This document shows, one piece after another, positions 5,748 to 19,103 of a DNA stretch of 42,125 nt. The position numbers and the translations under genes were made by a program. Source of the DNA: Leptolyngbyaceae cyanobacterium T60_A2020_046 (GTDB lineage Bacteria > Cyanobacteriota > Cyanobacteriia > Phormidesmidales > Phormidesmidaceae); assembly GCA_015272155.1 (NCBI GenBank), contig JACYME010000101.1, positions 1 through 42,125 on the forward strand, read 5' to 3'. Under the pieces are notes generated by a model. The model made no database searches. It was not told where the DNA came from and worked only from the letters and a program-made list of their open reading frames with translations. The first letter of the stretch is position 1, and every line of letters begins with the position of its first letter.

Positions 5748-5819
<72 letters not shown>

Positions 5820-16064: not shown

Positions 16065-17375
16065 ATGAACCCTGCCCTGACTCAATTTGGCGACCAGATG
16101 TCCCACCTTACTGGGGTTCGGGCCATTATGAAGGACATTATTGAAACCTTGCGGGCAGGGCAGGGAAAGACATTTATTAATCTCAGTGCAGGTAACCCCG
16201 TTATCTTACCGGAAGTTGAAAAGCTCTGGCGGGACTGCACCGCTGAGCTGTTAGCGAGTCCTGAATATGGCGAGGTCGTGTGTCGCTACGGGTCGAGCCA
16301 AGGCTACGAACCCTTCATTGAAGCCGTACTAGCCGACTTTAATCAGCGCTATGGCCTGTCGCTCACTGAGCGAAACCTGTTGATCACACCCGGTAGTCAA
16401 GCCCTCTACTTCTACGCTGCAAACGCCCTGGGGGGCTATGCCGCGTCTGGACAGCTCAAGGAAATCGTCCTGCCCCTGAGTCCTGACTATACCGGCTATG
16501 GTGGCGTTTCGCTGATCCCAGAAGCCTTGAGAGCGTATAAGCCCACTATTGATTTAGGCACTGAGCCCCATCGCTTCAAATACCGGCCTGACTTTAGCCA
16601 ACTTGAAATTACTGAGAATACCGGCTTCGTCCTATTTTCTCGGCCCTGTAACCCAACGGGAAATGTGCTGACAGATGAGGAAGTAGCGCGCATTGCTGCC
16701 CTAGCCAAGCCCCATAATGTTCCCGTGCTCGTTGATTCAGCCTATGCCCCACCCTACCCAGCGCTGAACTTTACAGAAATGACGCCAGTGTTTGGGGACA
16801 ACATGGTGCACTGCATCAGCTTGTCGAAGGCCGGTTTGCCGGGAGAACGGATTGGGATCGCCATTGGAGATGAGGCGGTGATTCAAGTTTTGCAGTCCTT
16901 CCAGACGAATCTCTGCATTCACTCCTCTCGCTATGGGCAGGCGATCGCAGCGCGAGCGATCGGCTCTGGAGCCCTGGGTGCGATCGCAGAAACCGTCATC
17001 CGTCCCCATTACCGTGGCAAGTTCACGGTTTTGGAAGAAAATCTAGAGCGCTACATGCCTGAGTCAGCCCCCTGGTATCTTCACCGGGGTGAGGGGGCAA
17101 TCTTTGCGTGGCTGTGGTTTGATGAACTGCCCGTAACGGATTGGGAGCTGTACCAACAGTTGAAGCAATATGGCGTCATCGTGGTGCCTGGAGAGCCTTT
17201 CTTCCCAGGATTAAAGGAAGATTGGCTCCATACCAAACAATGTATCCGCATTAGCCTGACGGCTACCGATGATGAGATTGCGACGGGCGTTCGGCATTTG
17301 GCGACGGTCGTCAGCGATCTATATCGCCAAGGTGTGGCGGCTCAAACCCCGGTTGAGGTAGCCCAATCCCGCTAG
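16065..17375 (+). CDS. avtA: Valine-pyruvate aminotransferase
   Basis: 436-residue fold-type I PLP aminotransferase, closely following E. coli AvtA in order and length: NLSAGNPVILPEVEKLW, ITPGSQALYFY, SRPCNPTGNVLTDEE, then SLSKAGLPGERIGIAIG with the PLP lysine in SLSKAGLPG. EGAIFAWLWFDELP and VVPGEPFFPGL follow. It transfers amino groups between valine and pyruvate or alanine. The ATG at 16065 gives the family start. rimM begins 9 bp after the stop, so the two form an operon. Confidence 0.92.
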   Translation: MNPALTQFGDQMSHLTGVRAIMKDIIETLRAGQGKTFINLSAGNPVILPEVEKLWRDCTAELLASPEYGEVVCRYGSSQGYEPFIEAVLADFNQRYGLSLTERNLLITPGSQALYFYAANALGGYAASGQLKEIVLPLSPDYTGYGGVSLIPEALRAYKPTIDLGTEPHRFKYRPDFSQLEITENTGFVLFSRPCNPTGNVLTDEEVARIAALAKPHNVPVLVDSAYAPPYPALNFTEMTPVFGDNMVHCISLSKAGLPGERIGIAIGDEAVIQVLQSFQTNLCIHSSRYGQAIAARAIGSGALGAIAETVIRPHYRGKFTVLEENLERYMPESAPWYLHRGEGAIFAWLWFDELPVTDWELYQQLKQYGVIVVPGEPFFPGLKEDWLHTKQCIRISLTATDDEIATGVRHLATVVSDLYRQGVAAQTPVEVAQSR

Positions 17376-17384
17376 TCCGCTCCT

Positions 17385-17969
17385 ATGGCTCCCCCCCATC
17401 GACAACCGTTAGCACTCCCCCCTGGCTGGCTCGAAATTGGTCGCGTTGTTGGCCCCCAAGGCTTGCGGGGAGAGGTTCGCGTTTATCCAAGCAGTGATTT
17501 TCCAGAACGATTTTTTTTGCCGGGCAGTCGAGGAGTGTTGCGCCCTGGTCAGGCTGAGCCGGAAATGATGACGCTGGTGTCGGGACGGTTCCTCGACAAC
17601 AAGGGGCTCTATCTCATTCAGTTTGAGGAAGTGCGCGATCGCGACCAGGCAGAGACTTTACGTAATGCAGTGCTGGTAGTGGCAGAGGGCGATCGCCTAC
17701 CCACAGAGCCCGATGAGTTCCACGTTGCAGACTTGATTGGCCTGTCGGTACGCATGCAGAGCACGGGCGACGCGATCGGGACAGTGGTTGATGTCTACAC
17801 CGCTGGCAACGACTTGCTTGCAGTCGCACTAGACCCCGTTCCCGAATCTTCTCAGCCGCCGCCCGTGCTGATTCCCTTTGTGCATGAGATCGTGCCCGTG
17901 GTGGATCTCGCGGCAGGGATCATCGAAATCACCCCACCCCAGGGTCTGATTCCCGATCGCAGGAGTTAA
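17385..17969 (+). CDS. rimM: Ribosome maturation factor RimM
   Basis: 194-residue 30S assembly factor that binds ribosomal protein S19 and helps 16S rRNA processing. The N-terminal RimM domain starts LEIGRVVGPQGLRGEVRVYP, followed by LYLIQFEEVRDRDQAE. The PRC-barrel half starts near residue 105 (FHVADLIGLSVRM) and ends VLIPFVHEIVPVVDLAAGII. Complete, and directly downstream of avtA. Confidence 0.94.
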   Translation: MAPPHRQPLALPPGWLEIGRVVGPQGLRGEVRVYPSSDFPERFFLPGSRGVLRPGQAEPEMMTLVSGRFLDNKGLYLIQFEEVRDRDQAETLRNAVLVVAEGDRLPTEPDEFHVADLIGLSVRMQSTGDAIGTVVDVYTAGNDLLAVALDPVPESSQPPPVLIPFVHEIVPVVDLAAGIIEITPPQGLIPDRRS

Positions 17970-18120: not shown

Positions 18121-18591
18121 CTATCGCACCGCCGAGTCTGAGGTGAGCAGTTGTTTGATAAGCATGACACGCACCCGCTGCAAGACCGCATCGTCGGGAA
18201 TCAGGCGTTCTTGATAGCTGCGCTGCCACACCGCACCACCCGGGCAGTTGCGCACCAAGTTGATGCGTTTTGCGGCGGCGGCTTTGTACCCGGCAATGAA
18301 TGAGGAGAGCAGCCTGGGTTTGCCAGAGATGCGAGGGGCGTAGCTCTTTGCCGCAAAGGGTTCTTGAACAGCCACGATACCTTCAAGGCGATCAGGCCGC
18401 AGCACCCATTGGTCGAGTTCAATACCGCGAGAGACTTTTGCCAGAGCCTTCCACTCATCGATCGCGATCGTCCCGATTGGATTGGGCTCTAGCCGCCCTT
18501 CGACAACCGTCCCAAACAGCGCTTCATTGTCATGGGTAAACAGCTTAATGAGATAAAACGCCTTATCTGTCAGCACCGGGGCAGACGGCAT
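18121..18591 (-). CDS. RAYT-like protein with lost HUH motif
   Basis: 156 residues from the ATG at 18591; an in-frame TTG at 18627 would add 12. The layout follows REP-associated tyrosine transposases (Y1_Tnp): AFYLIKLFTHDNEALFGTVV at the start, then IGTIAIDEW, then the segment that normally reads VMPNHFHGI, then KPRLLSSFIAGYKAAAAKRI and AVWQRSYQERLIPDD. Here the HUH position reads RPDRLEGI (about residues 65-72), so both metal-binding histidines are replaced by Arg and Glu. A tyrosine remains at Y126 in WQRSYQER. The frame is intact. It is probably a catalytically dead, retained derivative that may bind DNA; function unknown. Confidence 0.6.
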   Translation of the reverse strand: MPSAPVLTDKAFYLIKLFTHDNEALFGTVVEGRLEPNPIGTIAIDEWKALAKVSRGIELDQWVLRPDRLEGIVAVQEPFAAKSYAPRISGKPRLLSSFIAGYKAAAAKRINLVRNCPGGAVWQRSYQERLIPDDAVLQRVRVMLIKQLLTSDSAVR

Positions 18592-18627
18592 CGGTATCTG
18601 GGTAAGCTCAGAGTGCTGGTGGTTCAA

Positions 18628-19103
18628 GGTACTTTCTCAAAAGGGATGTCAATATCGGCTGCTGGGCTTAGAGTGCCCAATTGAAGAGAAAAGCGTGCGC
18701 ATCAACCGATTGAGTTTGGGGCAGTGGAAAACCGATCATAATGCCAGATTCTGAAAAACGAGAACCCGCACTATCGAGACAGACTTTGAGTTGAAGTGCG
18801 TGCCATAAACCTACTTTCTAAAAACAGCCCGCTTTAGTGACTATTGTTGTACGAACCGCTGGGTAATGCTTGCGTAATTTTCACCAACGCGAGGGTCAAC
18901 CGCTTACGGTTTAAGCCAAGTAGGTTCACCGATGAATGCTGAACGTTTGCAATGGGGATTGCATGGCATGGATTGCATCGGACTAAGGGCGCGATCGCGC
19001 CTCCCATATCATGCGATCAATCGCGATCGCGAGTCTTCGCGACGCCCTATCGGGGAGAGAAATTCTGCCTATCCGACAAAAACATCCGCTTGGGGCATGA
19101 AGC
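18628..19103. other. Gene-poor region with an inverted repeat
   Basis: Nearly 1 kb without an intact gene separates the RAYT-like gene from ppk1. AACCTACTT (18808-18816) and AAGTAGGTT (18918-18926) are a perfect 9-bp inverted repeat 119 nt end to end, with a small internal hairpin AACCG-CTTA-CGGTT just before the second arm. Several HIP1 sites cluster at 18990-19035. It could be a remnant of a small mobile repeat tied to the RAYT relative, but I see only one copy. Confidence 0.3.

Follow-up and report, generated by a model that had tools for sequence, protein, structure and literature searches.

The window, the stretch of 42,125 nucleotides analyzed here, lies on a contig of a 4.2-Mb genome and carries on its minus strand an uninterrupted reading frame that runs from a TTG codon at 18627 to a stop at 18121 and encodes a protein of 168 amino acids (18121..18627). 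The gene had been placed at 18121-18591 in the first-pass annotation, which had the stop end right but took an internal ATG (18591) as the 5' end of a frame that is open from 18627. The TTG is favored, short of proof, over the alternative ATG as the start: six relatives (L033, L034, L035, L036, L037, and L050) share with the window a TTG at the aligned position. On one side the gene is adjoined by the convergent rimM (17385..17969, plus strand) and, beyond it, by a class I/II aminotransferase gene (16065..17375, plus strand) that belongs to the conserved context described below, and on the other side by a polyphosphate kinase gene. The only Rfam match in the window was a tRNA at 5748-5819. The gene occurs once in its genome, where the only other match (E 0.0026) covered a stretch of 43 residues at 35% identity, and not as the multiple near-identical mobile copies characteristic of IS200/IS605 elements. 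A member of a separate Y1_Tnp group is found on contig C225 of the same genome (L001, 1501-1764), with PNHYH and YIHLNP motifs and 39.1 bits to Pfam; its open frame of 112 amino acids is apparently short at the N-terminus.

The window protein gave no match to Pfam PF01797 (Y1_Tnp) at E ≤ 10, and 8 of 35 orthologues matched this family at E ≤ 1. NCBIfam REP_Tyr_transpos was matched with E 0.0013 and 18.6 bits against a cut-off of 80; NF047646 was matched at E ≤ 1 by all 35 sequences of orthologue set A2, with the window protein far under the cut-off. PHROGs returned nothing for the window protein and single-member matches only among the 35. Profile-profile comparison by hhalign with 16 active RAYTs gave a probability of 100 with E 7e-48 and 38% identity, and at the level of sequence, descent of the protein from RAYTs is indicated. 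The likeness is to subclass 2.4 RAYTs (Quentin et al. 2018; group 4 of Bertels), which include the active L086, L087, and L120 within the family, and it extends to the predicted Y1 fold and the order of its elements, a KPRxLSSFVAGFK...KRIN helix, and a WQRxY strand. The subclass was assigned by reading on these active relatives the motifs NH[IFV]H, WQ, and YIxNNP from a table in PMC6006769, an excerpt of which describes subclass 2.4 as abundant in cyanobacteria.

The residues that define RAYT chemistry are, however, missing from the window protein. RPDRLEGI occupies the position of the PNHxHG motif, and R80 (18388-18390) and E82 (18382-18384) replace both histidines, as the first-pass annotation had reported. 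Both columns of this former HUH motif, now R80-L81-E82 (18382..18390, minus strand), are H in 31 of the 31 active RAYTs tallied. Further losses had been overlooked: by alignment, M155 (18163..18165, minus strand) now stands in place of the catalytic tyrosine (E. coli Y115), Q159 replaces the metal-ligand asparagine of Y-x-x-x-N-P, and the N-terminal RRSxR motif is absent. E. coli numbering (W94, Q95, E100, R104, Y115, and N119) was set on PDB 4er8 via the active-RAYT profile. The earlier statement that the protein follows the RAYT layout throughout thus holds for the fold but not for the catalytic and N-terminal motifs. PMC3733652 and PMC2817692 describe HUH and the tyrosine as conserved in their aligned RAYTs. 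Without HUH (R80/E82) and without a catalytic tyrosine in Y-x-x-x-N-P (M155/Q159), the protein falls outside the functional definition of a RAYT or TnpAREP, and it is unlike subclass 2.4 in lacking HUH, Tyr, YxxxNP, and the N-terminal RRSxRLxxYDY. We refer to this protein and its orthologues as dead-type.

These losses were tallied over 55 orthologues, in which the first histidine was kept in three, the second in five, and both in none; the tyrosine was kept in 0/55 and the asparagine column was N in 2/55. HUH, Tyr, Asn, and Pro were all retained in 31/31 active RAYTs, a set comprising 27 sequences from the family and four from other families (L073, L074, L080, and L091). Left out of it were L090 (internal stop), L092, L126, and L128 (broken or truncated), and L001 (the different Y1 group), and L089, fetched with the active rows, was placed in the dead clade. 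Outside the family, 23 reading frames from 22 loci all retained HUH and Tyr, these loci being mostly the best-scoring matches in the class together with a series from one genus, and including L162, which is the same place as L073 of the 31. The first-pass annotation had suggested checking whether the DRLEG form is common to a whole clade. The loss is indeed clade-wide, but DRLEG is not fixed and varied non-HUH motifs stand in its place. The contrary outcome, a change in one genome with HUH in its relatives, was looked for and is not what we found.

The family search covered 63 genomes, with RAYT-like matches in 57 and a dead-type orthologue in 55, one per genome. The copy in G005 is divided between two contig ends with an identical overlap (L116 and L222). 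Eight family genomes have no dead-type gene, of which two (G016 and G075) have other RAYT-like matches only and six have none; some of the eight are incomplete assemblies. The gene may therefore be dispensable, given these eight genomes without a copy. The genomes G078, G079, G080, and G081 of genus g12 have neither the dead-type gene nor any RAYT-like match, pointing to secondary loss within that genus. Thirteen weaker places in the family comprised L222 (the other end of the G005 gene), two intact active-type copies (L226 and L232), and ten broken or truncated active-type ones, all outside the 31; none was a second dead-type copy. The relatives belong to genera of filamentous cyanobacteria that include Leptolyngbya, Nodosilinea, Halomicronema, Adonisia, and Phormidesmis. 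A class-wide search took in 291 genomes, 34 of them from the family. The nearest sampled relative of the window protein was 56% identical.

In a 106-row tree, the 55 dead-type rows formed one side of a single branch with SH-aLRT 100, and the clade was unchanged, again with SH-aLRT 100, when nine motif columns were dropped; both trees were quick searches without bootstrap, and the inner placement of the long branches L028 and L024 is unsure. L162, L164, and one of the two L172 frames were excluded from the tree. The domain was free of internal stops in all 55 dead-type copies, one of which (L112) has four masked residues.

Of 56 within-group pairs, 43 allowed dN/dS to be computed by the Nei-Gojobori method, with values of 0.04-0.28, and the rest were saturated; a few of the 43 have dS > 2, and the window's own lineage is outside this set. 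These values indicate purifying selection, as the first-pass annotation had supposed when it suggested that dN/dS be calculated. In five pairs, the dead-type gene gave dN/dS of 0.086-0.203 vs 0.075-0.095 for rimM. The dead-type gene is constrained, yet it was the faster of the two and less constrained than rimM in all five pairs. The uninterrupted frame had been taken as a sign of selection rather than decay, and the dN/dS range, a loss traced to the clade ancestor, single-copy occurrence, and synteny all bear this out. The gene is vertically inherited, single-copy, syntenic, and under purifying selection, as is expected of a domesticated host gene.

The surroundings of the gene are conserved, with 40 of 41 loci (40 named loci and the window) in one of two contexts that were never combined at one locus; L036 alone was in neither. 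In the first context, found at 22/41 loci, the gene lies within 4 kb of rimM and/or an M48 peptidase gene, and rimM itself is within this distance at 16/41 loci including the window. In the second (18/41 loci), it is near YqeY at 14 loci, with or without a protein kinase gene, and near the kinase alone at four, these two names being a reading of the sequences and not the result of a family search. A tRNA-Leu(CAA) gene is located between the M48 gene and the dead-type gene in 18/18 M48-bearing loci. The same tRNA was present at 22/24 scanned M48 loci outside the family, and the M48 flanks covered, at most 1,500 bases long, contained no RAYT-like frame in any of 26 non-family loci. In the window's own genome, the M48 gene and the tRNA are on another contig without the dead-type gene (L191), and rimM still adjoins the latter. 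At many loci in several cyanobacterial families (L184-L212), some 20 bases at the 3' end of the M48 match also belong to the tRNA-Leu(CAA) gene, a conserved overlap between protein and tRNA genes; at L187, for example, the tRNA occupies 2343-2424 and the M48 match ends at 2361.

An AlphaFold2 model was built from the 35 sequences of set A2 and had a mean pLDDT of 85.2 and a pTM of 0.75. Its elements follow the order strand, helix A, two strands, helix C (105-126), strand, and helix D. A Foldseek search against the PDB gave Y1 transposase chains throughout the best 30 matches, with E. coli TnpAREP (4er8) ranked 30. With VIA-align, IS608 TnpA (2a6m) gave Z 13.4 and rmsd 3.0 over 115 aligned residues and 4er8 gave Z 11.8 and rmsd 2.8 over 118, and the best unrelated fold had Z 8.4. 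The model thus predicts a Y1 transposase fold for the dead-type protein. The first-pass annotation had suggested modelling the fold against TnpA-REP and had named the lack of a predicted Y1_Tnp fold as a refutation of its reading; the model does not refute it. A profile of the dead clade gave no match to PDB sequences at E ≤ 10, so the fold rests on the model. Relative to 4er8, the protein shares the predicted fold and keeps W94, Q95, and position 100, whereas it is changed at both histidines, Y115, N119, and R104, and its chain ends soon past helix D.

We then compared constraint along the protein as the mean commonest-residue frequency per segment in the dead-type rows and in the 31 active rows. 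The segment 103-126 around helix alpha-3/C (18250..18321, minus strand), with conserved K103, P104, K115, K120, R121, and N123, scored 0.84 in the dead clade vs 0.56 in the active rows. Against the 12 nearest active rows the comparison was 0.84 vs 0.79, a small gain, and this was the sole segment higher in the dead clade. For the other segments, the values in dead-type vs all active rows were 0.32 vs 0.70 (N-tail), 0.55 vs 0.71 (beta-1), 0.64 vs 0.48 (helix A), 0.56 vs 0.52 (beta-2), 0.50 vs 0.69 (HUH strand), 0.68 vs 0.53 (turn 127-133), 0.73 vs 0.85 (beta-4), and 0.42 vs 0.61 (helix D). K115, R121, N123, W134, and Y138 are invariant in 55/55 dead-type proteins, R121 being present in just 11/31 active ones. 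The strand beta-4 region, WQRSYQERLI (18199..18228, minus strand), keeps W134, Q135 (E. coli Q95), Y138, and E140 (position 100), and by alignment the residue that follows, R104 in E. coli, is P144 (18196-18198, minus strand). Across the dead clade, Q95 is found in 51/55, an acidic residue at position 100 in 52/55, and R104 in one (L012).

PMC8266576 describes the alpha-3 helix of E. coli TnpAREP as binding the hairpin and residues around beta-4 as contacting the GTAG foot, with Q95, D100, and R104 common to groups 2 and 3. We equated alpha-3 with helix C by its position ahead of beta-4. Read on the sequences, the side that holds the hairpin seems to be retained and the one that cuts to be lost, with changes on the side that reads the foot. 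The fold and the conserved basic helix fall short of proving nucleic-acid binding, and some of the conserved residues may be structural.

A 9-bp inverted repeat at 18808-18926 had been offered as a possible target. The repeat is exact, but when the window was cut into 42 consecutive 985-base pieces, 30 contained one or more 9-bp inverted repeats (spacer up to 150), and the 985 bases upstream of the gene have three. When these upstream bases were shuffled by base, at least one such repeat appeared in 32% of 500 shuffles; a shuffle test of that exact repeat sequence (0/100) is unfair, the pattern having been picked after being seen. A genome search with the upstream stretch, in line with the earlier proposal to look for similar repeats, found no other full copy. 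Being no commoner than expected by chance and present in one copy, the repeat was rejected as a target. A scan for stems (arms of at least 9, loop 3-14, at most one mismatch) found none in the 520 bases upstream of the gene in the window; in the relatives the same scan found no single stem in common, and many loci were without any.

Some relatives do have upstream stems. At L034, L035, L039, L041, L042, and L046 these lie 13-35 nt past the end of the tRNA-Leu gene; the L035 stem is A/T-flanked, and GTAG is present in the stems of L039, L041, and L046. Farther A/T-flanked stems are found at L038 (175 nt), L043 (178), L069 (286), and L065 (498). A tRNA terminator is expected just past the tRNA-Leu gene. 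As a shared target the stems were rejected, their sequences being different and many loci having none, and they are better read as putative terminators or REP insertions. At L039, L041, L042, and L046, unlike palindromes, some of them GTAG-footed, occupy the expected terminator site 13-35 nt past tRNA-Leu, where REP-like elements may have replaced the tRNA terminator.

Palindromes of the form GTAGGGGC...GCCCCTAC occurred in 49/63 family genomes. A backward control pattern gave 0 or 1 per genome, so that a single palindrome does not count as a sign of REPs; in some family genomes the GTAGGGGC palindromes number 20-56. The whole of the window's genome gave no match to GTAGGGGC-N2-20-GCCCCTAC. 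Eleven genomes with the dead-type gene are free of these palindromes, namely, G000 (the window's), G005, G009, G012, G026, G027, G031, G059, G069, G084, and G085, and therefore servicing those REPs is not the only reason for which the gene is kept. The repeat, copy, stem, and palindrome searches found no target for the dead-type protein.

The above considerations strongly indicate that the gene belongs to a domesticated, cleavage-dead RAYT lineage in this cyanobacterial family. The first-pass annotation had proposed a domesticated DNA- or hairpin-binding protein; domestication is upheld by the single copy, synteny, and selection, and binding remains the inferred part. In the sequence of events that we propose, a subclass 2.4-type RAYT gene would have become fixed in the family's ancestor; its most likely site, a reconstruction, is next to rimM on the downstream side of the block formed by the M48 peptidase and tRNA-Leu(CAA) genes. 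The fixed RAYT then lost its cleavage chemistry (HUH, Tyr, and the Asn ligand) and the N-terminal RRSxR, losses that are directly seen in the alignment, and has since been passed on by vertical descent as a host gene in single copy, as the clade, synteny, and selection attest. The predicted Y1 fold has been retained, together with helix alpha-3/C, which is unusually constrained, and some of the beta-4 surface; by alignment and literature, the helix and this surface correspond to the parts that hold the single-stranded hairpin and foot in E. coli TnpAREP. Because these parts are retained, the protein is probably a non-cutting binder of folded single-stranded nucleic acid. It would bind folded single-stranded DNA or RNA without cutting, and might regulate or protect a single site or a small number of sites and not dispersed GTAG REPs.

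The Y1 core, being ferredoxin-like, could instead act on structured RNA, such as an mRNA leader or a tRNA, and not on ssDNA. The modelled fold is near those of the RNA-binding ferredoxin-like Thg1 and ribosomal S6 (Z 7.1-8.4, a common range), and the position of the gene downstream of tRNA-Leu(CAA) in every M48-bearing locus would suit such a role. Lasting ssDNA hairpins are, moreover, scarce in a double-stranded chromosome. The tRNA block is, however, equally conserved in families without the dead-type gene, and tRNA and gene are on different contigs in the window's genome. Studied close homologues act on ssDNA (PMC6006769). We consider a dedicated RNA-binding protein unlikely.

Were the protein to compete for hairpins without cutting, as an antagonist of active RAYTs in trans or as a guardian masking GTAG REPs, this role would fit the origin in the same subclass, the retention of the hairpin-binding helix and of two of the three shared GTAG-contacting positions, and the 20-56 palindromes of some family genomes, but it is hard to reconcile with the eleven palindrome-free genomes, the window's included, or with the loss of R104 and the RRSxR motif. 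A hand count found additional RAYT-like matches, intact or broken, in 25/55 genomes with the dead-type gene and in 2/8 without it (the short fragment L032 in G000 was not counted), and therefore keeping the gene does not depend on RAYT-like copies. This role is accordingly rated as very unlikely. Altered constraint in the dead clade, in which alone A119 and L124 are fixed and in which D57, K103, and R121 are raised to 93-100%, might mean that the Y1 fold has lost nucleic-acid binding and now serves as a scaffold between proteins or as an enzyme of a new kind, yet constraint is highest in the basic nucleic-acid-binding helix, which leaves only a slim chance for either. That the gene is a decaying pseudogene of an active RAYT, still open by chance, would agree with the loss of every catalytic residue, the variable tail, and the eight genomes without it, but is all but refuted by the 55 genomes that hold the gene without an in-domain stop, the low dN/dS, the single ancestral clade of the loss, and the decay that active-type copies do undergo in the family (L090, L126, and L128; 10 of 12 weak active-type matches broken or truncated).

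The preferred reading of a selected, non-cutting lineage may be set beside known systems. Unlike subclass 2.4 RAYTs, the dead-type gene is present as one copy per genome in a conserved context and shows no dependence on GTAG REPs. The survey of TnpAY1 proteins in PMC6006769 reports, in the part available, that HuH or Y motifs were absent in 5/10 class 3 members and that 722 of 924 proteins were kept after a complete core was required, and it reads missing core motifs as suggesting non-functional proteins. The dead-type protein resembles these class 2 and class 3 TnpAY1 in its missing motifs; it differs in forming a clade-wide, selected lineage, which that part of the survey does not describe. 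The main text of a review of recruited mobile elements (PMC8987985) does not contain the word RAYT, and no catalytically dead RAYT clade was named among the literature matches listed.

TldR regulators originate from TnpB. As nuclease-dead, TnpB-derived regulators, they offer a functional analogy, that of a transposon enzyme minus catalysis kept for binding, and not one of membership, since the proteins are unrelated and no guide RNA is known for the dead-type gene. We give even odds to the wider proposal that, family-wide, a RAYT has become a regulator that binds nucleic acid in a structure-specific way, does not cleave it, and is decoupled from REPs. It would then be a Y1/HUH counterpart of TldR and represent a second way of domesticating a RAYT, with binding and not cutting kept by the host. 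In a selected lineage without catalytic residues, binding is set apart from cutting, which suggests that binding by itself can be worth keeping. The dead-type gene, single-copy and present in named strains such as Leptolyngbya sp. PCC 6406 and Nodosilinea nodulosa PCC 7104, provides a clean test protein, and motif filters conceal genes of this kind.

Among the active RAYTs, a GTAGGGGC palindrome was observed inside the genes at L086 (G014:C375:2557-2584) and L087 (G032:C1:6703376-6703403); a palindrome within the RAYT gene is also reported for subclass 2.4 in PMC6006769.
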